This document shows, piece after piece, positions 3,009 through 36,830 of a DNA stretch of 36,830 bases. Under the pieces are notes generated by a model. It saw only the letters and a program-made list of their open reading frames with translations, ran no database searches and was not told the DNA's origin. Position numbers and translations under genes: made by a program. Numbering within the stretch: the first letter of the stretch is position 1; each line of letters begins with the position of its first letter. Source of the DNA: Gammaproteobacteria bacterium (lineage in GTDB: Bacteria; Pseudomonadota; Gammaproteobacteria; Steroidobacterales; Steroidobacteraceae); the NCBI GenBank assembly GCA_005878095.1, contig VBNH01000092.1:1-36830 (forward strand), given 5' to 3'.

Positions 3009-5006
3009 ATGAGCGCGCCGCATCCACAAGCCGTCTTCGGAGAGAGCCTGCGCCGGGCGCACGCGGCACTGCGCGCCGGTCAGGCGGTGACCGCGGAAGC
3101 GTGGCTGCGGGCGCTCGAGGCGCAGGCGCCCGGGGAGGTCAACTGCCTGTGGCTGCTCGGCGTGGCGCTCCTGGACCAGGACAAAATCCCCGAGAGCATC
3201 GCGACGCTCGAGCGTGTCCTCGCCAGCGCTCCGGACTTCGCGAACGCGCGCGTCGACCTGGCGCGCGCCTATCGGCGCGACGGCCGCGCGGCGCAGGCGC
3301 GTGAACAAGTGCGGCGGGTTCTGAAGAGCGCGCCCCACCACCATCTCGCCTGGCTCGCCTACGGCGACGTGCTCGTCGACCTCGGTCAGTATGTGGATGC
3401 GTGCACGGCGTTCGAGCGCGCGCGCCTTAGCGATCCGCAGCGGCAGCGTGTAGAGCAAGCCACGGCCGCGCTCGTGGCCGACGACCGGAAAAAATCCGAG
3501 GCTCTGTTTCGCGACATCCTGCGGGCCGATGCGAGTCATGTCGCGGCGCTGTGCGGGCTGGCGGCACTCTCGCTGGCAGCGGACGTACCCCACGATGCCG
3601 AGCGGCTGCTGCGCCATGCCCTGAAACAGTCCGAGCACGTCCCGCTCGCATACCGGGGACTCGGGCCGGCATTGCTGGCGTTGGGCCGCATCGAGGAAGC
3701 GGACGCCGCCGCGCGCCACTTGCTGAAGATGGAGCCCGAAAACCCGCAGAGTTGGATCACGATCGCCGCCGTGGCGACGCGGCTCATGCGCCAGGAGGAA
3801 GCGCTCGAAGCCTACGAGCAGGCGGCCCGCTTCAAGCCGGAGGAGCTACGGCTGCGGATGTCCATCGGACACGTTCAAAAGACGCTCGGCAGGCGGCGCG
3901 AGAGCGAGGCCTCCTATAAGGCGGCGCTGGCGATGGATCCGCGCAATGCCGAGGCCTACTGGAGCCTGGCGGATCTCAAGAATTATTCATTCAGCGATGC
4001 CGAGGTCGCCGCCATGCAGCGCCTGCTTACGGACGACAAGCGCGCGCACCCCAATGAGGCGCAGCTGTACTTTGCGCTGGGAAAAGCCTTCGAACAGCGC
4101 CAGCAGTACCCGCAAGCCTTCGCGCACTACGCCAGGGGCAACGCGCTGCGGCGCCGCGATGCGCCGTTCGACATCGGGAACTTCGAGCGCCGCAGCGCGC
4201 GCATTCGCGCGTTCTTCGACAGCGCGTTCTTTGCCGCGCGCGAGGGCAGCGGGGACCCGAGCGGCGCGCCGATCTTCATCGTCGGCCTGCCACGCTCCGG
4301 ATCAACGCTCATCGAGCAGATCCTCGCCAGCCATTCGGGCGTGGACGGAACCATGGAGCTGCCGAACATCATCAACATCACGCGCGAGTTCGAAGACATG
4401 TCCGCCAACCGGGACGGCTACCCCGAGAGCCTCGGCAGCGCCTCGGCGGCGCAGCTCAGTGCACTCGGCCGCCGCTATATCGAGGAGACCGCGCCGCTGC
4501 GCCGCGGGCGCGAGCGCTTCACCGACAAGCTGCCCAATAATTTCAGTCACGTCGGACTCATCCACGCGATCCTGCCGAGGGCTACCCTCATCGACGCGCG
4601 TCGCCATCCGATGGATTCGTGCTTCAGCACCTTCAAGCAGCACTTCGCGGAAGGGCAGACCTTCAGCTACGATCTCCAGGACCTCGGCCGCTACTACCGC
4701 TGCTATCTCGCGCTCATGGATCACTGGGATGCCGTGTTGCCCGGCAAGGTGCTGCATCTTCAGTACGAGGAGCTGGTGCGCAACCCGGAGGCGAACATTC
4801 GCCGCCTCCTCGAGCACTGCCGGCTGCCCTTCGAGGCCGCCTGCCTCTCCTTTCACGAGACGCAACGCTCGGTGCGCACCGCCAGCGCCGAACAGGTGCG
4901 TCAGCCGCTGTATACCTCGGGGGTGGGGTACTGGCGACATTTCGCCACCGAGCTCGAGCCCCTGCGTCGCGCCCTCGGCGACAGTCTCGAGCGCTTCGAG
5001 TGCTGA
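3009..5006 (+). CDS. TPR-repeat sulfotransferase
   Basis: A 665-residue two-part protein. The first 400 or so residues are tandem tetratricopeptide repeats (for example GVALLDQDKIPESIATLERVL, then many degenerate copies). The C-terminal 245 residues are a sulfotransferase domain with the PAPS 5'-phosphosulfate loop in IFIVGLPRSGSTLIEQIL and the 3'-phosphate-binding segment near DARRHPMDSCFS. Such TPR-sulfotransferases are predicted to move sulfate from PAPS to a protein or carbohydrate acceptor. The acceptor here is unknown. In this group of bacteria the gene often lies beside TonB receptors, as here (TonB gene follows). I chose the ATG at 3009 (GGAG 4 bases upstream) over longer in-frame openings because the TPR sequence starts just after it. 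Confidence 0.9.
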   Translation: MSAPHPQAVFGESLRRAHAALRAGQAVTAEAWLRALEAQAPGEVNCLWLLGVALLDQDKIPESIATLERVLASAPDFANARVDLARAYRRDGRAAQAREQVRRVLKSAPHHHLAWLAYGDVLVDLGQYVDACTAFERARLSDPQRQRVEQATAALVADDRKKSEALFRDILRADASHVAALCGLAALSLAADVPHDAERLLRHALKQSEHVPLAYRGLGPALLALGRIEEADAAARHLLKMEPENPQSWITIAAVATRLMRQEEALEAYEQAARFKPEELRLRMSIGHVQKTLGRRRESEASYKAALAMDPRNAEAYWSLADLKNYSFSDAEVAAMQRLLTDDKRAHPNEAQLYFALGKAFEQRQQYPQAFAHYARGNALRRRDAPFDIGNFERRSARIRAFFDSAFFAAREGSGDPSGAPIFIVGLPRSGSTLIEQILASHSGVDGTMELPNIINITREFEDMSANRDGYPESLGSASAAQLSALGRRYIEETAPLRRGRERFTDKLPNNFSHVGLIHAILPRATLIDARRHPMDSCFSTFKQHFAEGQTFSYDLQDLGRYYRCYLALMDHWDAVLPGKVLHLQYEELVRNPEANIRRLLEHCRLPFEAACLSFHETQRSVRTASAEQVRQPLYTSGVGYWRHFATELEPLRRALGDSLERFEC

Positions 5007-5141: not shown

Positions 5142-7580
5142 GTGGGTACCAGAACCAAGGTTCGTGCGGCCGATCACTTTTGCAGGACGACGCTGCCCCC
5201 GGGCTCCAGAATCGGCCTCGCGGTCGCGGCGGCGCTCGCCAGTGTCGCCGCGCCGCGCACGCCCGCATTCGCGGCGACGGCGGATGCTTCCAGCGGCGGG
5301 CTGCAGGAAGTCGTCGTCACGGCGCGCAAGCGCGAGGAGAACCTCCAGGACGTTCCCATCAGCATCGACGTATTCACGCAGAAGGACCTTCAGAACCTCG
5401 CCATTACGCAATTCGACGACTATGCAGCGAAGGTGCCGTCGATTTCCTTCATCAGCGTCGGCCCCGGCACCCAGGTGTTCTTCATGCGCGGCGTGTCCGA
5501 CGGCAGCAATCCGAACTACGCCAACAGCTCCGCGACGGGATTTTTTCTCGACGATATGTCCCTGAGCTGGTTCGGAGTGCAACCGGACCTGCACCTTTAC
5601 GACGTCGAGCGCATCGAAGTGCTCAACGGCCCGCAGGGTACGACCTTCGGCGCAGGTTCCATGGCCGGCGCGGTGCGCTACATCACCAACAAGCCCGACG
5701 TGCACCACTTCAGCGCCGGCGCCGATTTCGACGGCGGCAAGATCCAAGGTGGCCAGGAAGTGCAGACCTACGAGGGGTTTGTCAATCTGCCCTTGATCGA
5801 CGGCCGCCTCGGCCTGCGGCTCTCCGCCTTCAGCGCCGCCCATGGCGGCTTCGTCAACAACGCGCTCACCACGCGCCACTGGGTCAACGGTGCGGTCTCG
5901 AACAATGCGCAGTGGGCGCGCGACGACTACAACCGCGAGCATCAGGAGGGCGGGCGCGTGGCCCTCAGGGCGGTATTCAGCGACTCCTGGAGCTCGACGT
6001 TTTCCTACGACTATCAGCGCCTGTCCGCGCTCGGCGCGTGGGACGAAGATCCGAATCTGCCCCGGACGGTGGCGCGCTTCGGCCCGGAAGACCACCGCTT
6101 TCAGGCCAAGACCTGGGATTTGCGCGTCGACGGCGACGTCGGCATCGCGGACCTGGTGTTCGCCAGCACCTACTGGTCGCTACCCACGCGGCAGCTGAAC
6201 GAGTACTCCCAGTACATGGAGAACTTCAGTCATCCGCAGTATGGCCTGCAGCCTGGGTTCGTGGAGTCACTGGCGTGCGATACGGGACCGCACTACAGCG
6301 CCCCTGCCGAGCCGTTCAGCGGCTGCAACGTCCCGTTTCAATACTACGAATACCACACCAACCCCGAGCGCTGGTCGGACGAGCTGCGCCTGCTTTCCAA
6401 ACCCGGCGGGCGCTTCCACTGGCTCGCGGGTCTGTACTGGGAGAAGACGGTAGACAAGAACTCGGGCAGCACCTTCTACAACCCGGGACTGAAGCCACAG
6501 GGTGACACGTTCCAGTATTATCTCGCGTATTACGGCCAAACCGCCTCCTCGCTCGACCCAGGAGTCTGGTACGGCTATACCACGCGCTCCGACTACCTGC
6601 AGACCACCGAGTTTGCGGATATCAGCTTCGACCTCACGGACAAGCTCAACGTCGAAGCGGGAGTCGTGCACTTTCATTCCAATTTCTCCTACTACAGCCC
6701 CTACGGGCAGTTTGCTTACGCCCCCACGGCCTCGACCTTATCGACCGGCTCATCGCACAAGTGGAACAGCAAGTTCGGAATCAACTACAAGCTCACCGAC
6801 AAGGTGATGCTGTATGCCGACTTCGGTCAGGGCTTCCGCGATGGCGGAGCCAATTCCGGCTTTCCGGCGTCGTGCTATGCGAGCGGAGTGCCGCCGAGCT
6901 ATGTACCCGACACGCTCAATAACTACGAACTCGGCTGGAAGTCGACCAGCCTGGCAGGCCGGCTGCTGTGGAACGGCGCGGCCTACTACATGGATTGGAA
7001 AAACCTGCAGACGCTCCTCTACGACATAAATATCTGTGCCCCCAGCAGTTTCAACGCCAACGTGGGTGACGGACGCATCTATGGTGTCGAGTCGAATGTC
7101 GACTACAAGATAGGCGACCACTGGTCGTTCCAGGGTTCCGCCAGCTACACCGACGCGCACCTGGTGTCGAGTGTGTTCTCGACCTTCGCCGTGAATGTCG
7201 GCGAGCGACTGCCCTATGTGCCCTACTTCAACTACAGCGCCAACCTGCGCTACGAGCATCCGCTCGGCGCCAGCCTGCACGGGTACGCGCAGTTCGACCT
7301 AGCCCACAAGGGTGACATGTGGGACGACCTTCACGTCGCCGGCTCGAACGGCTTCCCGCGCATCCTGCAGCCCGACTACACGGTCCTGAATCTGCGCTTC
7401 GGCTTGAATCCCGGGAGCAGCCACTGGCTGGCCGAGTTGTACGTCAGCAACCTCACGGACAAGAACGCGATCGTCTATACCAACACCGGCAACTTCGACC
7501 TGCGCCAGACGACCAACCAGCCGCGCGTCTTCGGCGTGCGCGTCAACTACCGCTTCGGCAAGGTGAGCGGCTCCGAGTAG
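5142..7580 (+). CDS. TonB-dependent outer-membrane receptor
   Basis: An 812-residue receptor. A signal peptide (hydrophobic LAVAAALASVAA, then Ala-rich cleavage region) is followed by a TonB-box-like stretch (QEVVVTARKREENLQDVPIS) and the plug domain with its LYDVERIEVLNGPQGTTFG motif. A 22-strand-type barrel ends in the aromatic VNYRFGK region, close to the usual C-terminal beta-strand. These proteins import scarce large ligands such as siderophores, cobalamin or glycans using TonB-ExbBD energy. The substrate cannot be told from sequence. A TTG at 5055 would give a longer start. I prefer GTG at 5142 because GGGGAG lies 7 bases upstream and the extension looks like leader rather than protein. 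The downstream permease gene begins 5 bp after the stop. Confidence 0.9.
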   Translation: MGTRTKVRAADHFCRTTLPPGSRIGLAVAAALASVAAPRTPAFAATADASSGGLQEVVVTARKREENLQDVPISIDVFTQKDLQNLAITQFDDYAAKVPSISFISVGPGTQVFFMRGVSDGSNPNYANSSATGFFLDDMSLSWFGVQPDLHLYDVERIEVLNGPQGTTFGAGSMAGAVRYITNKPDVHHFSAGADFDGGKIQGGQEVQTYEGFVNLPLIDGRLGLRLSAFSAAHGGFVNNALTTRHWVNGAVSNNAQWARDDYNREHQEGGRVALRAVFSDSWSSTFSYDYQRLSALGAWDEDPNLPRTVARFGPEDHRFQAKTWDLRVDGDVGIADLVFASTYWSLPTRQLNEYSQYMENFSHPQYGLQPGFVESLACDTGPHYSAPAEPFSGCNVPFQYYEYHTNPERWSDELRLLSKPGGRFHWLAGLYWEKTVDKNSGSTFYNPGLKPQGDTFQYYLAYYGQTASSLDPGVWYGYTTRSDYLQTTEFADISFDLTDKLNVEAGVVHFHSNFSYYSPYGQFAYAPTASTLSTGSSHKWNSKFGINYKLTDKVMLYADFGQGFRDGGANSGFPASCYASGVPPSYVPDTLNNYELGWKSTSLAGRLLWNGAAYYMDWKNLQTLLYDINICAPSSFNANVGDGRIYGVESNVDYKIGDHWSFQGSASYTDAHLVSSVFSTFAVNVGERLPYVPYFNYSANLRYEHPLGASLHGYAQFDLAHKGDMWDDLHVAGSNGFPRILQPDYTVLNLRFGLNPGSSHWLAELYVSNLTDKNAIVYTNTGNFDLRQTTNQPRVFGVRVNYRFGKVSGSE

Positions 7581-7585
7581 CGGCG

Positions 7586-8626
7586 TTGGAATCCGCCTTC
7601 TACCTGCGCAGCTTCCAGATCGCGACCGCGGCGATACTCGCCTACCTGCTGGTGCGGGTCCTCGATCCCTTGAGCGGCATGCTCGGCTGGGCGGCGGTGC
7701 TGGCGTTCATCCTGCACCCCCTGCACGAGCGGCTCACGCGGCGCTTCAAGGGCCGGCGCGCGCTCTCCGCCGGCATCCTCACCGCGCTCACGCCCTTCCT
7801 GGTGCTGGCGCCACTGTCGGTGCTGGCGGGCGCGTTCGTCGGCCAGGTGACGCGGCTCATCGAGTATCTGCGCGGCCACAGCATCCTCTCCTTTCCCGAG
7901 CTGGTCGAGCGCCTGTCGGGCTATCCGCTCCTCGGCGGCGCGGTCGGCTGGGTGCGCGAGAACGCGGTGGTCAGCGCCGCGCAGCTGCAGGGCTGGATGA
8001 CCGGCGGCCTGCAGACGCTGCTCAAGAGCGCCGCCTCCATGGGCGGCAGCGTCGCGCTCGGGGCGATCGGCACCCTGGTCGGCTTCTTCATGATGCTGTT
8101 CATGCTGTTCTTCTTCCTGCGCGATGGGCGTGCGATGCTCGATGGGCTGACGCGCCTCGTGCCGGTGGAGCACGAGCGGCGCGCGCGGCTGCTGAAATAC
8201 CTGGCCGACGTGACACGCGCGGTGGTGTTCGGCTCCACCGTGACCGCCCTCATCCAGGGACTGTTCGTCGGCGTGGGTTTCGCCCTGGTGGGCCTGCCCT
8301 CGCCGGTGGTGTTCGGCGTGCTCGGCACGGTGGCCGCTTTCCTGCCGGCCGGCGCCGGCGCCGTGCTGATTCCGGCGGTGCTGTATCTCGCCTTCAGCGG
8401 GCGCTGGGGCGCGGCCATCTTCCTCGCCTGCTGGACCGCGGCCATGTGGATCGGGGAGAACATCCTGCGGCCGCTCCTCACCGCGCACCAGGCCGAGGTG
8501 TCGACGCTGGCGATTTTCGTGGGCGCCATCGGCGGCGCCGCCGCCTTCGGCATCCTGGGACTGGTGATCGGACCGGTGTTGCTGAGCTTCGTCGTGGCGC
8601 TGGTACGCTTCGCGCAGGAGCGCTGA
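7586..8626 (+). CDS. AI-2E family (PerM-like) membrane permease
   Basis: About 346 residues with the hydrophobic layout of the AI-2E/PerM family: two or three N-terminal helices (FQIATAAILAYLLVRVLDPL and following), a soluble middle segment (VTRLIEYLRGHS onward), then about five helices ending GLVIGPVLLSFVVALVRF. The GFMMLFMLFFFLRDG-like block followed by the loop VFGSTVTALIQGLFVGVGFALVGLPSP is characteristic. The family was named for a proposed autoinducer-2 exporter, but several members are Na+/H+ antiporters, so the substrate is uncertain. No ATG fits. The TTG at 7586, just after the TonB-receptor stop, is the most economical start. Tight spacing suggests cotranscription. Confidence 0.85.
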   Translation: MESAFYLRSFQIATAAILAYLLVRVLDPLSGMLGWAAVLAFILHPLHERLTRRFKGRRALSAGILTALTPFLVLAPLSVLAGAFVGQVTRLIEYLRGHSILSFPELVERLSGYPLLGGAVGWVRENAVVSAAQLQGWMTGGLQTLLKSAASMGGSVALGAIGTLVGFFMMLFMLFFFLRDGRAMLDGLTRLVPVEHERRARLLKYLADVTRAVVFGSTVTALIQGLFVGVGFALVGLPSPVVFGVLGTVAAFLPAGAGAVLIPAVLYLAFSGRWGAAIFLACWTAAMWIGENILRPLLTAHQAEVSTLAIFVGAIGGAAAFGILGLVIGPVLLSFVVALVRFAQER

Positions 8627-8674
8627 AGGGCCGGGCGCCTGAGCTTGGCGCGTTTCCCGTAGAATGCGCGCCCC

Positions 8675-11600
8675 ATGGATGTCTCCCCGATCCTCGCTCC
8701 CCTGAACGAGGCGCAGCGCGCCGCCGTCACGGCCCCCTTGGGTCCGGTGCTGGTGCTGGCCGGGGCGGGCAGCGGCAAGACCCGCGTGCTGACGCACCGG
8801 ATCGCCTGGGTGATCCAGGCCGAGGGCGTATCCCCGCACGGGATCCTCGCGGTGACCTTCACCAACAAGGCCGCGGGCGAGATGCGCGCGCGCGTCGAGC
8901 GGCTGCTCGGGGTGCCGGGCGGCGCCTTGTGGATCGGCACCTTTCACGGCATCGCGCACCGGCTGCTGCGGTTGCACTGGCGCGAGGCGAAGCTCGCGCA
9001 GGGATTCCAGATCATGGATTCCGAGGATCAGCAGCGCCTCATCAAGAAGGTCCTGAAGGCGTCCGATCTCGACGAGACGCGCTGGGTGCCGCGCGAGGTG
9101 CAGTGGTTCATCAACTCCAACAAGGACGAAGGCCGCCGCCCGCAGCATCTCAAGGACGCCAACGACCCCACCCGCAGCCAGCTCATCAGGCTGTACGCCG
9201 CGTACGAGGAGGCCTGCACGCGCGCCGGGGTGGTGGACTTCGCGGAGCTGCTGCTGCGCGCCTTCGAGATGTGGCGGGACAACCCGGAACTGCTGGCGCA
9301 CTACCGGCAGCGCTTCCGGCACGTGCTGGTCGATGAGTTCCAGGACACCAACGCCATCCAGTACGAGTGGATTAAGCAGCTCGCCGCGCCAGGGCCGCTG
9401 GCTGCGCCAGGGCAGCACGCGGCATCGGCCCGCTCGGCCGCTGCGGCGGCCGCGAGCTGCCCGTTTGTGGTGGGGGACGACGACCAGTGCCTTGCAGCGG
9501 GCACCCCGGTCACGCTGGCGGACGGGTCGAAGCGGCCCATCGAGGCCGTCTCGCCCGGTGATCTGGTGATGTCGAGCTATGGCAGCGGCGCGTTGCGACC
9601 CGCGAAGGTTACCGAGCGGCTTGCCCGCGAGCGCAGCGGACGCATGCTCACGCTGTATATGCGCTCTGGACGGTCAATTTGCTCTACACCGGAGCACACG
9701 CACTTTGCCGGCTATCTCCTCGGCGAGACTCCCCAGACGTACTTTCTGTACCTCATGCACAAGGAAAGGGTGGGCTGGCGCCTCGGCACTTCGCAGGTCT
9801 ATACGAACGGCCAAGAGAAACCCATGGTGGGTTTCAAGCAGCGCTCGGCACAAGAACACGCCGACGACACGTGGATCATTCGTACTCACTCAACCGAGAA
9901 CGACGCCAGGCTTGACGAAATACTGACGTCGCTGCGGTACGGGTTGCCGACGTTGCCTTTTTCACCTCGCAAGGGCAAAGCGGTTAATGGACTCGTGCAC
10001 GACGCGAAATATATCTCGCACTTATTCCAATCTTTGGACACGGATGCCGCGGCTCTGAGACTCCTGGAGGACGTAGGGTTGGACCCCGAGCAGCCGCACT
10101 ATCGACCACGAGGTCGAAATTCCAACCGACACAACATCGTGATCACCTTGTGCGCGGGCCGTCGGGGCGCAAGCCCCATGCATCGAATCTCGGTTGCGGG
10201 CGGCGCGCGCGCCGTGCGCGGGATCCTCGAAGCGCAGGGTCTCAGTGTGCGTGCGGCCAAGCACAACCACGGGAGTTGGCGGTTCGAGACGGTGCGCAAG
10301 GACTTTGGCGAGCTGATGACGATCGCGAGGCGCATCCGCGATGAGCTCGACGCGCGATTGGTGCTGCAAGGGCTCATGTACAAGCGCTCGCTGCCCTTCG
10401 TCACGGCTTCGGCTATCCGACCCGGCATGGTGGTCGCGACCGACGCGAACAGCTTCGACGTCGTGGAGCGCATCGAGGCGCAGCCATACACGGGCGAGGT
10501 CTATGATCTCAACATCGAGCGCACGCATAACTTCATTGCTGGCGGCGTCATCACGCACAACTCGATTTATCGCTTCCGGGGCGCGAGCGCCCGGCACCTC
10601 GAGCAGTTCCGCCGCGACTACCCTGCGGCTCAGTTGTTCCGCCTCGAGCAGAACTACCGCTCCACCGGCACCATCCTGGAAGCGGCCAACGGGCTCATCG
10701 CCCATAACGCCGGCCGCCTCGGCAAGAAACTCTGGACCAGCGGCGCGCGCGGCGAGCCGATCCGCCTCTACACCGCCTTCAACGAGCGCGACGAGGCGGA
10801 GTTCGTCACGCACCGCATCCGCGAATGGGTGGCGGGCGGCGGACAGCGGCGCGAGCTCGCCATCCTGTACCGCTCCAACGCCCAGTCGCGCGTGTTCGAA
10901 GAGGCGTTTCTGTCGGCGCGCGTGCCGTACCGCGTGTACGGCGGCCTGCGGTTCTTCGAGCGCGCGGAAATCAAGGACGCGCTCGCCTACCTGCGGCTCA
11001 TTGCCAACCGCAACGATGACGCCTCCTTCGAGCGCGTGGTGAACCTGCCGACGCGCGGCGTGGGCGCGAAGAGCCTCGAGGTGCTGCGCGAGTATGCGCG
11101 GGGAGCCGGCTGCTCGTTGTGGCAGGCGGCCGCGGCCTCGAGCAGCGGCGGCGGCGCGCTCGGCGCCAAGGCGGGCGGCGCCATCCACGGCTTCCGCGCG
11201 CTCATCGAGCGCCTCGCCGGCGAGAGCCGCGGCCTCGCGCTGCACGAGCAGGTCGATCAGGTGTTGAAAGCGAGCGGCCTCATCGAGCACTACCGCCGCG
11301 AGAAGGCCGAGCGCGGCGAAGCGCGCGTCGAGAACCTCGATGAGCTGGTGAGCGCGGCGCGCGGCTTCACCCCCGAGGGCGCGGAGCTGCCGCCGCTCGA
11401 GGCGTTCCTGGCGCACGCCGCGCTCGAGTCCGGCGAAGGCCAGGCGCAGGAGTGGGAGGACTGTGTGCAGATGATGACGCTGCACAGCGCCAAGGGGCTG
11501 GAGTTCCCGGTGGTGTTCCTGTGCGGCATGGAGGAAGGGCTGTTCCCGCATCAGCGCTCGCTCACCGACCTCGACGGCCTGGAGGAAGAGCGCCGGCTGT

Positions 11601-11965
11601 GTTATGTCGGCATGACACGCGCCATGCAGCAGCTGTATCTCTCCTGGGCCGAGCAGCGGCGGCTGCACGGCGTGGACAGCTACGGCCAGGCGTCGCGCTT
11701 CGTGCGCGAGCTCCCGGAGGAGCTGCTGCAGGAGGTGCGCCCGCGCGTGGGTGTGGCGCATCCCAAGGCGGTGGGGCGCTTTCGCTTCGAGGAGCCGGCG
11801 GCGGCCGGCGTGCGGCTCGGGGCGCGGGTGCGGCACGGCAAGTTCGGCGAGGGCGTGATCCTCAGCGTCGAGGGCAACGGCGCGCAGGCGCGCGTGCAGG
11901 TGAGCTTCGAGCGCCAGGGCACCAAATGGCTGATGGTGCAGTACGCGAATCTCGAGCCGTTGTAG
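8675..11965 (+). CDS. uvrD: DNA helicase II UvrD, interrupted by an in-frame intein
   Basis: The precursor is 1,096 residues. Removing the 358-residue intein (272-629) leaves 738, close to the usual UvrD size. SF1A motifs are present: Walker A in LAGAGSGKTRVLTHR, motif Ia in AVTFTNKAAGEMRAR, Walker B DEFQDTN, motif III GDDDQ/SIYRFRGA split by the intein, motif IV QNYRSTGTI, motif V MTLHSAKGLEFPVVF and motif VI EERRLCYVGMTRA. The C-terminus has the PcrA/UvrD Tudor-like domain (VRHGKFGEGVIL). UvrD unwinds 3'-5' in nucleotide-excision and mismatch repair and removes RecA filaments. Residues 237-263, just before motif III, are an unusual Ala/Pro-rich insertion. A TAGAAT hexamer (8660-8665) lies very close to the ATG, so the transcript leader may be very short. 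Confidence 0.95.
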   Translation: MDVSPILAPLNEAQRAAVTAPLGPVLVLAGAGSGKTRVLTHRIAWVIQAEGVSPHGILAVTFTNKAAGEMRARVERLLGVPGGALWIGTFHGIAHRLLRLHWREAKLAQGFQIMDSEDQQRLIKKVLKASDLDETRWVPREVQWFINSNKDEGRRPQHLKDANDPTRSQLIRLYAAYEEACTRAGVVDFAELLLRAFEMWRDNPELLAHYRQRFRHVLVDEFQDTNAIQYEWIKQLAAPGPLAAPGQHAASARSAAAAAASCPFVVGDDDQCLAAGTPVTLADGSKRPIEAVSPGDLVMSSYGSGALRPAKVTERLARERSGRMLTLYMRSGRSICSTPEHTHFAGYLLGETPQTYFLYLMHKERVGWRLGTSQVYTNGQEKPMVGFKQRSAQEHADDTWIIRTHSTENDARLDEILTSLRYGLPTLPFSPRKGKAVNGLVHDAKYISHLFQSLDTDAAALRLLEDVGLDPEQPHYRPRGRNSNRHNIVITLCAGRRGASPMHRISVAGGARAVRGILEAQGLSVRAAKHNHGSWRFETVRKDFGELMTIARRIRDELDARLVLQGLMYKRSLPFVTASAIRPGMVVATDANSFDVVERIEAQPYTGEVYDLNIERTHNFIAGGVITHNSIYRFRGASARHLEQFRRDYPAAQLFRLEQNYRSTGTILEAANGLIAHNAGRLGKKLWTSGARGEPIRLYTAFNERDEAEFVTHRIREWVAGGGQRRELAILYRSNAQSRVFEEAFLSARVPYRVYGGLRFFERAEIKDALAYLRLIANRNDDASFERVVNLPTRGVGAKSLEVLREYARGAGCSLWQAAAASSSGGGALGAKAGGAIHGFRALIERLAGESRGLALHEQVDQVLKASGLIEHYRREKAERGEARVENLDELVSAARGFTPEGAELPPLEAFLAHAALESGEGQAQEWEDCVQMMTLHSAKGLEFPVVFLCGMEEGLFPHQRSLTDLDGLEEERRLCYVGMTRAMQQLYLSWAEQRRLHGVDSYGQASRFVRELPEELLQEVRPRVGVAHPKAVGRFRFEEPAAAGVRLGARVRHGKFGEGVILSVEGNGAQARVQVSFERQGTKWLMVQYANLEPL
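9488..10561 (+). mobile_element. Intein within UvrD helicase motif III, with a probable endonuclease-like central domain
   Basis: A 358-residue insertion splits motif III exactly between DDDQ and SIYRFRGA. It begins with Cys (CLAAGTPVTLADGSK, splicing block A) and has block B with its conserved Thr/His (STPEHTHF). It ends with block F (VYDLNIERTHNFIA) and block G (GGVITHN), then extein Ser+1. All residues for protein splicing (Cys1, block-B His, terminal His-Asn, Ser+1) are present, so it should be active. The middle contains YFLYLMHKERVGWRLGTS, about 40 residues on STENDARLDEILTSLRYGLP, and a Lys/Arg-rich part. No LAGLIDADG motif is seen. The spacing of the Tyr, Gly-Arg-Gly and Glu recalls a GIY-YIG nuclease, but this is inference. 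Similar inteins occur, from memory, in actinobacterial UvrD proteins. Confidence 0.93.
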
Positions 11966-31644: not shown

Positions 31645-31867
31645 TGTGGACTGCCCTGTGGACTTGCTGTGCGCGAACGTGAGGATAAGTTACGAACAGG
31701 ACGTGCACAGCTGTTGGTCAGTTCTTGCCTGCACATGTGCCGCGGAGAATCGACGGCAACAGCCTGAGCGTGAGCGGAAAGTTTTCTTATGCCCGTGAGT
31801 CACAGGCTCTATAGTCTTAACAATAAAGAGACTTTCACCGAATAAGATCCTACTGAAGAGAACTCTC
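31645..31867 (+). promoter_or_regulatory. dnaA-dnaN intergenic region, putative oriC and dnaN promoter
   Basis: The 223-bp gap holds one near-consensus DnaA box (TGAGGATAA, 31680-31688, 8 of 9 to TGTGGATAA). Two weaker TGTGGACT elements begin at 31645 and 31657. It also holds a distinctly AT-rich stretch (about 31780-31860) in a GC-rich genome, which could serve as the unwinding element. TATAGT at 31810-31815 may be the dnaN -10. Gene polarity also flips around rpmH/dnaA. The number of good boxes is low, so the functional origin could extend elsewhere. Confidence 0.5.
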
Positions 31868-32965
31868 ATGAAGCTGACCGCCACCCGCGAAGAGCTGCTC
31901 GCACCGCTCCAGAGTGTCATCGGGGTCGTCGAGCGCCGCCAGACCATGCCGGTGCTCGCCAACGTGCTGCTGGCTGCGCGGGACAATCGTCTGAGCGTGA
32001 CGGGAACCGACCTGGAAGTGGAGCTCGTGGCAACCTGCCCGGTGAGCGTGCAGCAGCCGGGCGACATCACGGTGCCGGGCCGCAAGCTGCTCGACATTTT
32101 CCGCTCGCTGGCGGAGAAGACGAGCGTCACCGTGAGCACCGAGGGCGAGCGCGTGTCGGTGCGCGCGGGTCGCAGCCGCTTCACTCTCTCGAGCCTGCCG
32201 GCCGCCGAGTTTCCGCTGGTCGAGGAGATCAACGCACAGCAGACGCTCAGCGTGGCGCAGGGCGAATTCCGGCGCCTGATCGACAAGACGCATTTCTCGA
32301 TGGCGCAGCAGGACGTGCGCTACTACCTCAACGGGCTGCTGCTCGAGACTGACGGCAAGGCGCTGCGTGCGGTGGCGACCGATGGGCACCGCCTCGCGCT
32401 GTGCGAGATGGCGCTCTCGGGAAAGGACAGGGCCACACAGCAGGTGATCGTGCCCCGCAAGGGGGTGCTCGAGCTGCAGCGCATCCTGGGAACCGAGGGC
32501 ACCATCGAGCTGGCCGTTGGTACCAATCACGTTCGCGCCCAGATCGGGGAAATTCGCTTCACTTCAAAGCTGATCGACGGCCGTTTCCCGGAGTATGCGC
32601 GGGTAATTCCGACGAATCCGCCGCGCACAGTGGAAGCGGACCGGGAAACCTTGAGACAGGCGCTTCAACGGACCGCCATCCTGTCCAACGAGAAGTACCG
32701 TGGAATCCGACTCACGGCGCGGCCGGGTCTGCTCACCCTTCAGGCGCACAACCCCGAGCAGGAAGAGGCCGAGGATCAGGTCGAGGTTTCGTACCAGGGG
32801 GAGGAAGTGGAGATTGGATTCAACGTCAACTATCTCCTCGATGCGCTGAGCGCGATCGAGAGCGACAAGGTGCACATCGGGCTCACCGACTCCAACAGCA
32901 GTTGCCTCATCCATGCGCCCGGCACGGCACACACGCGCTACGTCGTGATGCCGATGCGGCTCTAA
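31868..32965 (+). CDS. dnaN: DNA polymerase III beta sliding clamp
   Basis: 365 residues forming three clamp domains: MKLTATREELLAPLQSVIGV at the start, a second domain around LIDKTHFSMAQQDVRYYLNGLLLE, and a third around FNVNYLLDALSAIESDKV. It ends in the conserved VVMPMRL that forms part of the partner-binding groove. The dimeric ring holds Pol III and many repair proteins on DNA. Normally recF follows directly. Here the downstream DNA is a non-coding repeat array. Confidence 0.98.
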   Translation: MKLTATREELLAPLQSVIGVVERRQTMPVLANVLLAARDNRLSVTGTDLEVELVATCPVSVQQPGDITVPGRKLLDIFRSLAEKTSVTVSTEGERVSVRAGRSRFTLSSLPAAEFPLVEEINAQQTLSVAQGEFRRLIDKTHFSMAQQDVRYYLNGLLLETDGKALRAVATDGHRLALCEMALSGKDRATQQVIVPRKGVLELQRILGTEGTIELAVGTNHVRAQIGEIRFTSKLIDGRFPEYARVIPTNPPRTVEADRETLRQALQRTAILSNEKYRGIRLTARPGLLTLQAHNPEQEEAEDQVEVSYQGEEVEIGFNVNYLLDALSAIESDKVHIGLTDSNSSCLIHAPGTAHTRYVVMPMRL

Positions 32966-32980: not shown

Positions 32981-33579
32981 GCGCTACTGCGGCTCTCCGG
33001 ATAGGTGTTTCTTAGCAGCCTTGGCGACGCCCGAGGGCTCTGGTGCGGGCGATGGTCTCGTTTCACGTGTGCTGTTCGCTGCTCGGCCGAGAGCAGCCAA
33101 CTCACCATCAGACGCGGGCTGGCACGCGGGGCCAAAGAGCCTTCGGAGCGTGGCTACGGCCGTTCCACGTGGAACCTGGGGGGAGCCTACGCTCGGGGCT
33201 CGGACTGCCTCGGCTTGGGAGTCGTGCGCACAACCCGAGCTCGCCATGAGTTACGCGCACTGCATCAAGCGCCCGGAGCTTGAGACTCCGTGCATTGTCC
33301 CTGCTTGCTGGACAACGTGATGTCCGAAGGAAGACGCCTTGAACACCTAGGCTGGTCTGTGGCGAATTGCCGCGAATACGAGACGGTGAGCGCCGTGGAA
33401 TGACAGATAGGGTGATTTTCCAGCCATTAAATGCTTCGTGGGGTGCTCCGGGCCGCTACAGGGCCTCGGTTTCGAACCCAACTCCAGGTAAGCATCCGTC
33501 CGCGGCAGGCGCGCCTCTGGCCAAGACCCGTGCGCCTTTCAAGGTGTCGCATCCAATGGGTACCGATGACGCTCGCCGT
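32981..33579 (+). repeat. Repeat unit 1 (E tail-D-parS1-C-B-F-E)
   Basis: The first complete unit, starting 15 bp after the dnaN stop. It contains all elements; B is at about 33358-33412 and F at 33420-33490. The D element carries GTTTCACGTG (33060-33069), half of a parS-like palindrome absent from the other copies. Confidence 0.85.
33162..33175. promoter_or_regulatory. parS site 1
   Basis: GTTCCACGTGGAAC is a perfect 14-bp palindrome matching the core of the ParB-binding consensus TGTTNCACGTGNAACA. ParB nucleates here, spreads with CTP and is pulled by ParA. The flanking bases are C and C. Confidence 0.93.
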
Positions 33580-34168
33580 GCGCTATCGCCAGTCTTCGGC
33601 TGTTCGAATCAGGGGCGGTGCCCGAGGGCCGTGGTGCGACCGAGGTCTTCTTTCAGGTCTGCTGTTCGCCGCTGGCCCGACAGCAAGCAACTGACCAGCA
33701 AACGAGGCTGGCTCGCAGGCCAATGAGCCTACGGAGCGTCACCACCGGCGTTCCATGTGAAACCTGGGCGAGGCGATGCTGAGGGCTCGGACTGCCTCGG
33801 TTTGGGGGTCATCAGGCGCACAACCCAGAGGAGCTCGGTATGAATTGCAGGCACCGCATGAAGCATCCGGAGCTTGAGACTCCGCTGCGTTGGCGAGGGC
33901 TGACGGGTGCCGCTAGTTCGAGGAAGCTTGCCTAGAGCGCCCAGCGGCTGTTTGTGACGAATTGCCCCGAATACGCGACAGTTAGCGCTGCCAATTCACT
34001 GATAGGAGCATTTGCGAGGGACGCTTCGTGGGCTGCTTCAGGCCGGTACAGGGCGTGGGCTTCGAGCGCAGCTGCAGGTCCGCAGCGATCAGCGGCAGGC
34101 GCGCCCCTGACCAAGACCCGTGCGCCTTTTGCAGGTGTCGCATCCAATGGGCGAATGACGCTCGTCCT
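33580..34168 (+). repeat. Repeat unit 2 (with degenerate parS2)
   Basis: A full-length unit of about 590 bp carrying all elements (B near 33952-34010, F near 34010-34110). Its D and parS segments are the most diverged in the array. Confidence 0.85.
33750..33763. promoter_or_regulatory. parS site 2 (degenerate)
   Basis: GTTCCATGTGAAAC differs from the other four cores at two positions: the central CACGTG is now CATGTG, and G is replaced by A in the right arm. The right half alone matches the common GTGAAAC arm. Binding is probably weaker. Confidence 0.75.
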
Positions 34169-34171
34169 GCG

Positions 34172-34436
34172 CTATCACCGGTCTCCGCGCTGTTTCGAAT
34201 CAGGCTTGGCGGTGCGCGAGCGCTGTGGTGCGCCGCCCTGGCGGGACGCGGCCGCCTGCGAACTCAGCGGCAGCCGTGTGCCCTGGTCCAGATGGACGTT
34301 CTTCGCGCTCGATGTCATGTGAGCTGGTGGTCGCATCCGCCGCGCCGCCCGAGAGGCTCAAGCCGTGCTGCCCAAAGGCACCGCTACTGCCGGCAGCGAA
34401 CATTGCGGGAGCGTCCACGCGTGCCATCGCCACGCC
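34172..34436 (-). pseudogene. Fragment copy of the 3' end of the TrbI-like secreted protein gene
   Basis: On the minus strand this reads AGSSGAFGQHGLSLSGGAADA, matching AGSSGVFGLHGLSLSGGAADA of the intact gene ending at 35746. The frame then shifts near the ATTS/ATGS position, though DNA similarity continues to the homologous stop. It has no start and no RBS. It arrived with the repeat duplication and is not expressed as a protein as far as can be seen. Confidence 0.85.
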
Positions 34437-34549
34437 CCGCCTGCGGAGCACTGCTGGTGCCTACCACGAGCGACCCGACGCCGCTGGCCGCGCCTCACCA
34501 TGAGACGCTGGCTAGCACGAAGGGCGAAGCTTCCGGAGCGTCTACCCGC

Positions 34550-34563
34550 GTTCCACGTGGAAC
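34550..34563. promoter_or_regulatory. parS site 3
   Basis: Perfect GTTCCACGTGGAAC palindrome, flanked by C and G. It lies 800 bp from site 2, the largest spacing, because of the gene fragment in this unit. Confidence 0.93.
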
Positions 34564-34911
34564 GTGGGTGAGCCTCGGAGGAGTTGCCTCAGCTTGGGAG
34601 TCATAGAGCGCACAACCCGGAGGAGCTCGCATGAAATTGCAGGCACCGCATGGAGCGTCCTGAGCTTGAGACTCCGCTGCGTTGGCGGGGGCTTACGGGT
34701 GCCGCGTAGTTCGAGGAAGCTTGCCTGGAGCGCCCAGTGGCTGTTCGTGACGAATTGCCTCGTATACGCGGCAGTGAGTACTAAAAAGTGAGGGATAGGA
34801 TCATTTGAGACTCAATTAGATGCTTTGTGGGGTGTTCTGAGCGTGTACAGGCCTCGCTTCGAGCGCAGCTGCAGGAGCGCAGGGATCCGGGGTACGGATG
34901 ACGCTCGCCGC

Positions 34912-35402
34912 GCGCTGCCGCGGGTCTCCGGAAGGCTGTTTCGAGTCAGGCGTGACGACGGCCGGCGGCCGTGGTGCGGCCGATGGTCTCGTTTCAGGTG
35001 TGCTGTTCGCAGCTCGCCGCCAGGTAGCCAGCTCGCCATCAGGTACGGGCTGGCAAGCGGGTCAAAGAGCTCCCGCGCGTCGCTACCGGCGTTCCACGTG
35101 GAACTTGGGCGTGCATATGCCTGGGGCTCGGAAGCGTCGGCTTGGGAGTCAGAAAGCGCACGATCCGGAGGAGCTTGCCATAAGTTACAGGCGCTGCATC
35201 CAGCATCCGGGGCCTGAGACTCCGCTCCAGTGCCCCGGCTTGTGGGGGCGAGGAGATGTTCGGTAGGGAAGACGTCTCGAGCCCCCAGTGGTCTGTCTGT
35301 GACGGATTGCCTCGAATACGCGACGGTAAGCACTGTAGACCGACAGATAGGAGCATCCGCGAGCCATCAAATCCTTGGTTGTGCTCCGGGCGGCTACAGG
35401 AG
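34912..35402 (+). repeat. Repeat unit 4 (lacks the terminal E element)
   Basis: D, parS, C (35169-35235) and B (35292-35356) are present. F is cut short and joins directly to the next D at about 35400, so the F-E junction was lost by deletion. Confidence 0.8.
35091..35104. promoter_or_regulatory. parS site 4
   Basis: Perfect GTTCCACGTGGAAC palindrome, flanked by C and T, 541 bp after site 3. Confidence 0.93.
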
Positions 35403-35741
35403 CTCGGTGCCCGAGGGCTGTGGTGCGGGCGATGGTCTCGCTTCAGGTGGGCTGTTGGCTGCTCGCCGGACAACGCACTCATCATCTCATCAGACGCGCG
35501 CTGGCAAGCGGGCCAAAGCGGTTGCGGAGCGTGGCTACCGGTGTTCCACGTGGAACCTGCGCGAGCCTGGCTCGGGGCTCCGAGCAGTTGCCTGGGCTTG
35601 GGAGAGGTGTTCCAAGCCGGCACAGGGGCTGAGCTTGGAGCACAGCTGCGCGTCCGCAGGATCCGCGGCAGCGCGCCTCTCACCAAGCTCCTGTGCGCCT
35701 TTCCGGGTCTGGCATCCAAAGGGGACCGAAGACGCTCGCCG
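35403..35741 (+). repeat. Repeat unit 5 (lacks C and B), merging into the gene 3' end
   Basis: D and parS5 are followed almost directly by the end of F and by E. E runs without a break into the stop codon and last codons of the minus-strand gene at 35746. This copy shows where the E element came from. Confidence 0.8.
35543..35556. promoter_or_regulatory. parS site 5
   Basis: Perfect GTTCCACGTGGAAC palindrome. With the flanking T and C it matches the 16-bp TGTTCCACGTGGAACA form at 15 positions, the best match in the array. Confidence 0.95.
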
Positions 35742-35745
35742 TCCG

Positions 35746-36693
35746 CTATCGACGGTCTCCGGAAGGCTGTTTCGAATCAGGCTTGGTGGTGCCCGAGGGT
35801 CGCGGTGCGCCGCCCTGGCGGGACGCGCCCGCCTGCGAACTCAGGAGGAGCCGCGTGCCCTGGTCCAGATGCACGTTCTTCGCGCTCGAGGTCATGACTG
35901 ACCCCGTGGCCGCATCCGCCGCGCCGCCCGAGAGGCTCAAGCCGTGCAGCCCAAAGACGCCGCTACTGCCGGCAGTGAGCATCCCGGCAGCGTCCAATCC
36001 TCCCATCGCCCCCGGACCCGCCTGCAGTGCGCCGCTGGCGCCTCCCGCGAGCGACCCTACGCCGCCGGTCGCGCCGAGTCCCGATCCGACCGTCCCACCG
36101 ACGGCACCGGTGGTGCGCCCCAGCAAGCCTCCGCCGCGACTCATACCGGCACCGCCCGCCGCGCCCATCATCGCACCGGCGTCTCCGGCACTGCTCGCGG
36201 CGCTCGCTTCGGCGGCAGCCATCGCCTGGATCCCGAGGTAGCGAAGCGGAATCTCGTGTCCGTCCCGGGTCACCGCCTTGTCAAAGACGATACCCATCGA
36301 TGAGCCCGCCTGGCCTTCGGCCGCCGCGTGTGCATCGGAGACGTGTCCGATCAGCGTGCTGCCTTTTGGAATCGAGGTGCCCCCTTCGGTTCTGGCGTTT
36401 TGCGTCGTGCGTGCACTGACGGGATCACCGGGTTTGCTGCGCTTGGAGTCGAGGGGTTTGGTGAGCACGGCATTCACCGATGACCCGCTCGCCAGGTTGG
36501 CGCCGCTATCATCCGCGTGTGCCGCGCCGGCTGCGCTGCCTTGCGCGTTGGCGCTCGGGCGATCGGCCGTCACCGTCCCCTGGCCGGAGGCCTGGGCACC
36601 GGCTTGGGTTTGGGCCCACGTCGCCCCGGCAAACAGCACCGCCGCAGCGGCCAGACAGAGTCGTCCCGAAACGTGTCGCATCGGCATTGCCAT
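35746..36693 (-). CDS. Secreted TrbI-like/glycine-rich protein of unknown function
   Basis: 315 residues from ATG 36693 (GGAGG 5 bases upstream decides the start). A signal peptide (LCLAAAAVLFAGATWAQ) is followed by a Gln/Ala/Ser-rich stretch. A compact domain then contains NAVLTKPLDSKRSKPGDPV, TSIPKGSTLIGHVSDA and SMGIVFDKAVTRDGHEIPL, resembling the beta-barrel part of TrbI/VirB10-like proteins (similarity by eye). Residues about 185-275 are Gly/Ala-rich low complexity with GGG and Met-Met stretches. The end has VHLDQGTRLLLSSQ and a polar tail. Relatives are mostly hypothetical proteins. The 3' end of this gene has been copied into the adjacent parS array. Confidence 0.8.
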   Translation of the reverse strand: MAMPMRHVSGRLCLAAAAVLFAGATWAQTQAGAQASGQGTVTADRPSANAQGSAAGAAHADDSGANLASGSSVNAVLTKPLDSKRSKPGDPVSARTTQNARTEGGTSIPKGSTLIGHVSDAHAAAEGQAGSSMGIVFDKAVTRDGHEIPLRYLGIQAMAAAEASAASSAGDAGAMMGAAGGAGMSRGGGLLGRTTGAVGGTVGSGLGATGGVGSLAGGASGALQAGPGAMGGLDAAGMLTAGSSGVFGLHGLSLSGGAADAATGSVMTSSAKNVHLDQGTRLLLSSQAGASRQGGAPRPSGTTKPDSKQPSGDRR

Positions 36694-36830
36694 GATCGCC
36701 TCCGTGGTCGGCCTCGGATGCGCCCGAAGTGCGCCTTGCCCTGGCCGAAGATTCTCAGGCATCGAATTGTTCCCATAGCACTGAGAGTCGTCAATTGTCC
36801 GTGGCCCGCGACCAGGTGAAGGCGATATGT

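Follow-up and report, generated by a model that had tools for sequence, protein, structure and literature searches.

Diverged tandem repeats with parS sites after dnaN: a candidate amplified parS cluster in a Steroidobacteraceae draft genome

Dimers of chromosomal ParB use parS as a loading site and slide along DNA as clamps, their release being tied to CTP hydrolysis (PMC10387095). In Myxococcus xanthus, 22 parS sites are reported within 3 kb near the origin (PMC3899335), in a cluster bound by ParB in vitro and situated about 4 kb upstream of parA (PMC3899335, PMC3778016), and up to 20 to 23 sites are reported for Streptomyces coelicolor and Listeria innocua (PMC7333895). Pseudomonas aeruginosa has a four-site cluster beside dnaA-dnaN (PMC5521831, PMC4368675, PMC5098823), with parS1 and parS2 inside recF (PMC5521831). 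Here we describe an array of diverged tandem repeats carrying parS sites after dnaN in a 36,830-nucleotide stretch of DNA (positions 1 to 36,830 of contig VBNH01000092.1, assembly GCA_005878095.1, from a gammaproteobacterium of the family Steroidobacteraceae), hereafter the window. We consider it highly probable that tandem duplication of a segment joining parS to the start of recF produced the array, which would then be a chromosomal parS cluster that has been amplified and is held by selection on parS.

The array resembles the M. xanthus cluster in being a dense group of the same site type within about 3 kb near the predicted origin, but its sites lie 452 to 800 bp apart rather than about 140 bp apart on average, and it follows dnaN, in repeats that we read as partly recF derived, rather than preceding parA. 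A high parS copy number near the origin is likewise shared with S. coelicolor and L. innocua, although the description of their sites in PMC7333895 makes no mention of long repeats such as those that hold the window sites. P. aeruginosa shares the dnaA-dnaN setting, and its two recF sites are like the two in 20 of the 32 genomes shown from our DnaN tree; repeats go unmentioned in the descriptions of its cluster drawn on here, whereas the window array consists of them. The original prediction from the window sequence held that parS usually occurs as short isolated sites, which the M. xanthus (PMC3899335) and the S. coelicolor and L. innocua (PMC7333895) reports reveal as an overstatement. Since dense clusters were already known in Myxococcus, we regard the window array as a variant with an unusually readable history. 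The S. coelicolor and L. innocua sites are, we assume, spread over a wider region. In sopC of the F plasmid, a ParB-family protein loads on a tandem array, as is predicted here, but the sopC units are short, plasmid borne, of another motif and, to our knowledge, without a known gene origin. Satellite centromeres of eukaryotes offer an analogy, with tandem units, lineage-specific turnover and a short protein-binding box kept amid drift; their size, proteins and mechanism are unrelated to the window array.

Among the matches listed in a search of titles and abstract starts of the open-licence PMC literature, parS amplification via gene-fragment duplication was not described. What appears to be new here is a parS cluster made of putative gene-fragment duplications for which a single-copy state is visible. 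The array suggests a route by which a bacterial centromere can grow, and relatives appear to keep steps from two gene-embedded sites to a seven-site array plus one site in recF. The decaying recF pieces provide an internal neutral yardstick for measuring selection on each parS, and the question of centromere growth can be tested directly, both through comparative work and with constructed arrays.

Repeat units and parS sites after dnaN

Over about 2.7 kb the array holds four units that are almost complete, a fifth that is truncated, and some fragments (Table 1). It begins 19 nt after the dnaN stop codon, and the first parS lies 197 nt after that codon. A motif scan bore out the five 14-mers originally predicted, four perfect and one with two changes, and the flanking identity put at roughly 75 to 80% proved a fair middle value (61 to 90% for ungapped copies, 68 to 83% for gapped local alignments). 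Matches to the 16-bp palindrome TGTTNCACGTGNAACA with at most three mismatches number five in the whole window, all of them array sites, a count that none of 100 dinucleotide shuffles reached (mean 0.61, largest 4). Sites 1, 3, 4 and 5 keep all core bases, with one or two mismatches at the outermost positions, while site 2 has three mismatches. Five is a minimum: the contig ends at 36830, two to three bases short of the position of a further parS in two relatives, so that the assembly cuts the array.

The draft genome (3.43 Mb in 191 contigs, 94.7% complete) holds four exact copies of the 14-mer, all within 2.6 kb after dnaN, a clustering to be read with the incompleteness of the draft in mind. 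Outside the array it has one site with one mismatch (C25:22922) and six with two. Exact sites in the draft are thus confined to the array rather than scattered genome wide, and the repeat is equally local: a 601-bp unit searched against the draft gave eight matches, all on the window contig between 33023 and 35809. With no unit copies elsewhere in the draft, we rejected a dispersed repeat of the REP/BIME-like kind, and the concern that the unit is a common interspersed element was not borne out. The predicted position next to oriC stands in part. dnaA and dnaN adjoin the array, and from this neighborhood alone the origin is predicted to lie close by; the window holds a single DnaA-box-like 9-mer with one mismatch, at 31680, and a search of the window for a DnaA-box cluster found none.

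Scanning with DnaN located 80 loci, almost all of them in genomes derived from metagenomes (several titled Steroidobacteraceae); isolates of Steroidobacter agaridevorans and Povalibacter uvarum are also included. Typically the order is dnaN-recF-gyrB, and recF contains two parS sites, which lie about 416 and 1022 nt into the gene. As the original prediction had proposed looking for, the same array is found between dnaN and recF in two of them, L022 (VBMV01000087.1), with seven consensus sites before a recF that starts 4584 nt after dnaN, and L023 (VBNP01000036.1), with six before a recF that starts 4503 nt after dnaN. The other 78 loci had no blastn match to the array or its enclosed gene at E 1e-3; L050 and L032, whose sequences stop 117 nt and 1 nt beyond dnaN, are uninformative for this layout. 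Among 217 genomes of the family, strong matches to array DNA came only from the window genome (G000) and the genomes of L023 (G005) and L022 (G006), the others being scraps of 42 bp and 55 bp (E 4.4e-4 and 3.1e-4). Two of the DnaN loci, L054 and L059, bear Klebsiella pneumoniae titles, but their DnaN is 72 to 73% identical to that of the window and they have the two-site pattern of the group, so the titles look like those of mislabelled metagenome bins.

Exact GTTYCACGTGRAAC sites were tallied by eye in 247 genomes of the order that are at least 90% complete. Most (188) have two sites; 14 have none, 13 have one, 21 have three, eight (the window genome included) have four, one has five and two have eight. 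Genomes counted as having none may lack the relevant contigs, and G093, G334 and G339 each have their four sites split over two contigs. The two eight-site genomes are that of L022, with seven sites in the array and one in recF, and G172. The latter (L078, QGUO01000111.1) carries eight exact sites at 6922-9536, two in recF and six after it, and one 128-bp tandem copy at 81% identity holds a parS; it is a separate case from the window array.

recF ancestry and parS conservation

We built a unit profile of 578 positions from 22 stretches of the three arrays (window, L022 and L023). Model positions 260-540 are colinear with positions 10-308 of L023 recF (50.2 bits, E 1.9e-15) and model positions 284-563 with positions 34-337 of L022 recF (48.2 bits, E 7.7e-15). 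The array-free relative L027 gave a colinear match of model positions 284-568 to recF 34-332 (13.5 bits, E 2.5e-4). As controls, 160 shuffled recF sequences scored at most 2.8 bits (E 0.19) and 79 dnaA-dnaN stretches at most 4.5 bits (E 0.13); a rebuilt unit model gave E values of 4.4e-15, 1.2e-14 and 7e-4 against the same recF genes of L023, L022 and L027. parS occupies model positions 179-192, ahead of the recF-like part, for which reason we rejected descent of the unit parS from the recF-internal site at +416. We read the unit as parS, a spacer and about the first 340 nt of recF. What the original prediction had treated as anonymous repeats thus appear to be decayed duplications of parS and the recF 5' end. 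Replacement of a lost recF by the array was also considered and rejected: recF follows the array in L022, and in L023 it begins before the contig ends.

The same combination of parS and recF start is present once each in three array-free relatives, L026, L027 and L177, with parS 77 to 109 nt before recF. The upstream parS and recF start fall in a single colinear alignment with the unit in L027 (16.7 bits, E 7.5e-7) and L026 (10.6 bits, E 5.4e-5), two of 10 loci tested, where the best of 300 shuffles reached 5.8 bits (E 0.046); in L177 the alignment of intergenic parS and recF start has E 2.9e-7. This single-copy arrangement is likely the ancestral state.

We asked how the recF-derived DNA and parS have fared within the units. 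Identity between units over the recF-derived columns is 0.62, 0.66 to 0.67, and 0.63 to 0.64 at codon positions 1, 2 and 3 (gaps counted as differences), compared with 0.74 to 0.90, 0.78 to 0.96, and 0.44 to 0.67 for four pairs of real recF genes over the same stretch (gaps skipped). Such flat conservation across codon positions indicates that the recF copies evolve without coding constraint. A direct test bore out the original prediction that selection preserves the ParB site amid a decaying repeat: with gaps counted as differences, the 14 parS columns have an identity of 0.967 over the 17 of the 22 stretches that cover them, versus a mean of 0.576 (standard deviation 0.111, maximum 0.794) for 523 other 14-column windows of the units. 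No second motif of parS-like strength was found in the unit, the next best separate window standing at 0.79. The sequence is GTTYCACGTGRAAC in 15 of the 17 unit rows and differs at window site 2 and at one L023 site, disrupted on inspection. The sites at +3829 in L022 and +3989 in L023, whose flanks are not unit DNA, were left out of this comparison.

History of the array and competing explanations

Phylogenies of the units and of DnaN suggest how the array may have arisen. In a tree of 16 of the 22 stretches (those of at least 250 bases), a split with ultrafast bootstrap 97 sets the four window units apart from all 12 units of L022 and L023, and the six from L023 form a group (87). Grouping by genome indicates that units were amplified or homogenized within lineages after the species split. 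On the DnaN tree, of which 32 of 82 tips were printed, 20 genomes have two parS sites in recF and none upstream, and the nine genomes with an upstream parS, the window included, form one group (support 0.90). L032 was left out of this tree for its incomplete dnaN, and recF was not located in L030, L031 and L045. At the base of the upstream-parS group, L176 has both recF sites and one upstream parS, while in L022, L024, L026, L027 and L177 the first recF site alone remains; in L023 and L025 the contig stops within recF, and recF was not seen in the window genome. The three array genomes group together (support 0.98). A separate upstream site is present in L041, outside the upstream-parS group; the second recF site of L041 has one mismatch. 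These patterns suggest a series in which one parS was added upstream of a recF containing two, the 3' recF site was lost and tandem amplification followed. As a separate observation, L176 (G041:C42:3000-14000) has further exact sites at 3130 and 3672, beyond gyrB, making five in all.

As a model, the amplified-cluster reading would start from an ancestor with dnaN-recF-gyrB and two recF sites, in which another parS was gained between dnaN and recF, a short way upstream of the latter. A segment with that parS and roughly the first 340 nt of recF would then have been duplicated in tandem again and again, laying down units between dnaN and an intact recF; the extra recF pieces, being noncoding, would drift freely, while most parS copies would be under selection as loading sites for chromosomal ParB. 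The array is most likely a candidate ParB-loading cluster, at which binding is predicted from the sites. ParB would clamp on at parS and slide between sites, which at distances of 452 to 800 bp could fill the whole interval with ParB; such density may yield a single strong partition complex at the origin, which ParA would move and which might also recruit SMC, and extra copies may bring a benefit.

Several points weigh against this reading. Inner nodes of the DnaN tree are weak (0.10 and 0.74), making the order of steps a working one. Not every parS copy appears to be held, given the two changes in window site 2 and the disrupted L023 site near +4130, and extra copies may bring little, since in P. 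aeruginosa one of the four origin-proximal sites is enough (PMC4368675). A source was sought for the part of the unit before parS (model 1-175), and none was traced. The ancestor-like alignment occurs in three array-free relatives only, with low bit scores in L026 and L027, and parS alone gives about 6 bits of such a score; in the other eight of the 10 loci the match is chiefly to parS, and L024 (E 0.06) and L025 (E 0.003) give weak alignments to recF only. L026, L027 and L177 also have one or two additional parS sites further upstream. Pairwise alignments of nine units with L024 recF are weak (z 0.7 to 4.5, 30 shuffles); those with L022 recF reach z values up to 15, excluding one segment that runs into recF itself. 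Protein searches of the window with eight RecF sequences gave no match better than E 0.24, and a tblastn search with L022 RecF as the query gave best forward matches of E 0.002 in L023 and 0.13 in the window.

A further step, which we put forward tentatively, is that the array has become a satellite-like centromere. An intergenic parS freed from the coding constraint of recF might allow ongoing, lineage-specific amplification and turnover of units, in which the number of parS copies would be the sole target of selection.

Alternatively, the array could be a by-product of a duplication-prone dnaN-recF gap that carried parS along, its neutral copies looking conserved because they are recent. The clustering of units by genome, with the window split from L022 and L023 at bootstrap 97, fits this idea, as does the capture of other DNA, namely the gene fragment in the window and a 235-bp copy of the dnaA 3' end (90% identity) within the L022 array, 3899-4133 nt after dnaN. 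The L022 array also carries a piece of the dnaN tail, and its dnaA copy indicates that the region captures neighboring coding DNA as well. However, recent neutral copies would be uniformly alike, whereas the mean identity of the units is 0.58 to 0.59 (gaps as differences) against 0.967 for parS. Recent neutral copying does not explain that contrast, and we consider this alternative unlikely.

We think it similarly improbable that ParB on the array mainly silences or insulates dnaA-dnaN-recF-gyrB or the enclosed gene, with segregation secondary. In P. aeruginosa, ParB excess is reported to lower the expression of genes around parS1 to parS4, and the authors suggest that ParB on the recF sites parS1 and parS2 interferes with dnaA-dnaN-recF-gyrB (PMC5521831). 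In L022 and L023 the array puts about 4.5 kb between dnaN and recF, and one promoter-like match (0.3 expected) precedes the enclosed gene at 36794-36766 on the minus strand. No promoter-like match was found within the units in a scan of one promoter type, and the draft's only exact parS sites are in the array, which must therefore include segregation sites unless those lie in missing DNA.

Collapsed or chimeric repeats could in principle have produced the array during assembly. The window contig stops partway through the region, a search of the window draft for recF gave just two weak matches (24.7 and 19.8 bits versus a cut-off of 172), all three array genomes are drafts, and the record titles of L022 and L023 suggest one sampling series. 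Yet the three genomes share the order dnaN, array and the same enclosed gene, followed by recF in the two that continue; the enclosed proteins are 84 to 89% identical across genomes and the units are too diverged for assembler duplicates, making an artifact very improbable. An integrated plasmid or phage centromere, an idea to which tandem-repeat plasmid centromeres such as sopC of F and a subthreshold TrbI (conjugation family) match in the enclosed gene lend something, was rejected and has a negligible chance of being right, since part of each unit appears to derive from recF, the array had no match among 72,556 plasmid records, and the enclosed protein had no PHROGs match or viral-contig relative.

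Host ParB and neighboring genes

A cognate ParB gene is present in the draft, as the single TIGR00180 match above cut-off. It adjoins a parA-like partial open reading frame (ORF) that runs to the contig end, and ATP synthase genes, labelled by eye, apparently lie beside it. Its top-scoring NCBIfam model is Noc, but the 208.7 bits fall far short of the 315 required there; for the ParB domain it scores 191.7 against a threshold of 58.45. As the sole ParB-family match it keeps the equivalents of R173 and G201 (counted by hand in an alignment to 6t1f) rather than the Q173 and R201 of the Noc protein that Noc binding sites (NBS) would call for. The closest solved chain is 7bnk, presumably from M. 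xanthus. A histidine stands at the hand-counted equivalent of Caulobacter Q162, a residue reported as conserved in ParB and Noc; R and G at the other two positions are reported as invariant in ParB orthologues (PMC7383237).

Features of the window are collected in Table 1, with the host ParB. Starts of the recF fragments were anchored on repeat family D7 and ends were estimated from the unit ends. The gene enclosed by the array encodes an Ala/Gly-rich protein, copies of which lie inside the arrays of L022 (89% identical) and L023 (84%); its TrbI match has E 5.6e-4 and 20.2 bits, below the cut-off of 35, and no NCBIfam match was found. Within the window, 34039-34494 matches 35613-36075 at 83% identity, with protein pieces 80% and 59% identical, and the gene fragment in unit 3 is on this comparison a piece apparently brought into the array by segmental duplication.

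Table 1. Features of the array, its surroundings and the host ParB gene (window positions unless another contig is named)
Feature	Position	Strand	Evidence or remark
dnaA	30313..31644	+	Pfam Bac_DnaA 9.1e-71, Bac_DnaA_C 1.8e-32, DnaA_N 4.7e-18
dnaN (sliding clamp), last gene before array	31868..32965	+	Pfam DNA_pol3_beta N-terminal, central and C-terminal domains
Repeat unit 1 (model 1-578)	32984..33555	+	nhmmer E 6.2e-137
parS site 1	33162..33175	.	reads GTTCCACGTGGAAC
Putative decayed recF 5' fragment, unit 1	33237..33540 (approximate)	+	model 260-563 vs recF 10-337
Repeat unit 2 (model 1-578)	33583..34146	+	nhmmer E 7.8e-155
parS-like site 2	33750..33763	.	reads GTTCCATGTGAAAC, 2 changes
Putative decayed recF 5' fragment, unit 2	33831..34131 (approximate)	+	same model/recF alignment
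Repeat unit 3 (model 1-536), enlarged by neighboring-gene fragment	34172..34900	+	nhmmer E 8.8e-110
Truncated copy of 3' part of 35746-36762 gene	34178..34494	-	repeat families D9 90%, D11 86%, D17 83%
parS site 3	34550..34563	.	exact, GTTCCACGTGGAAC
Putative decayed recF 5' fragment, unit 3	34623..34900 (approximate)	+	same model/recF alignment
Repeat unit 4 (model 2-488)	34916..35403	+	nhmmer E 5.9e-115
parS site 4	35091..35104	.	exact, GTTCCACGTGGAAC
Putative decayed recF 5' fragment, unit 4, shorter	35171..35403 (approximate)	+	same model/recF alignment
Truncated unit 5 (model 42-240, then 463-578)	35405..35718	+	nhmmer E 9e-44, 1.5e-21
parS site 5	35543..35556	.	exact, GTTCCACGTGGAAC
Start of further unit (model 1-79), overlaps 3' end of minus-strand ORF	35746..35899	+	nhmmer E 2e-17
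Enclosed Ala/Gly-rich ORF, 338 aa, no assigned function	35746..36762	-	signal-peptide-like stretch by eye
ParB, 295 aa	L103 5132-6019	-	GERRWRAA motif

Apart from the array, the uvrD ORF (DNA helicase II; window 8675-11965, plus strand, 1096 aa) has an apparent intein between its helicase halves: intein-related models match residues 272-633 and 608-630, and the best helicase stretch begins at residue 628.

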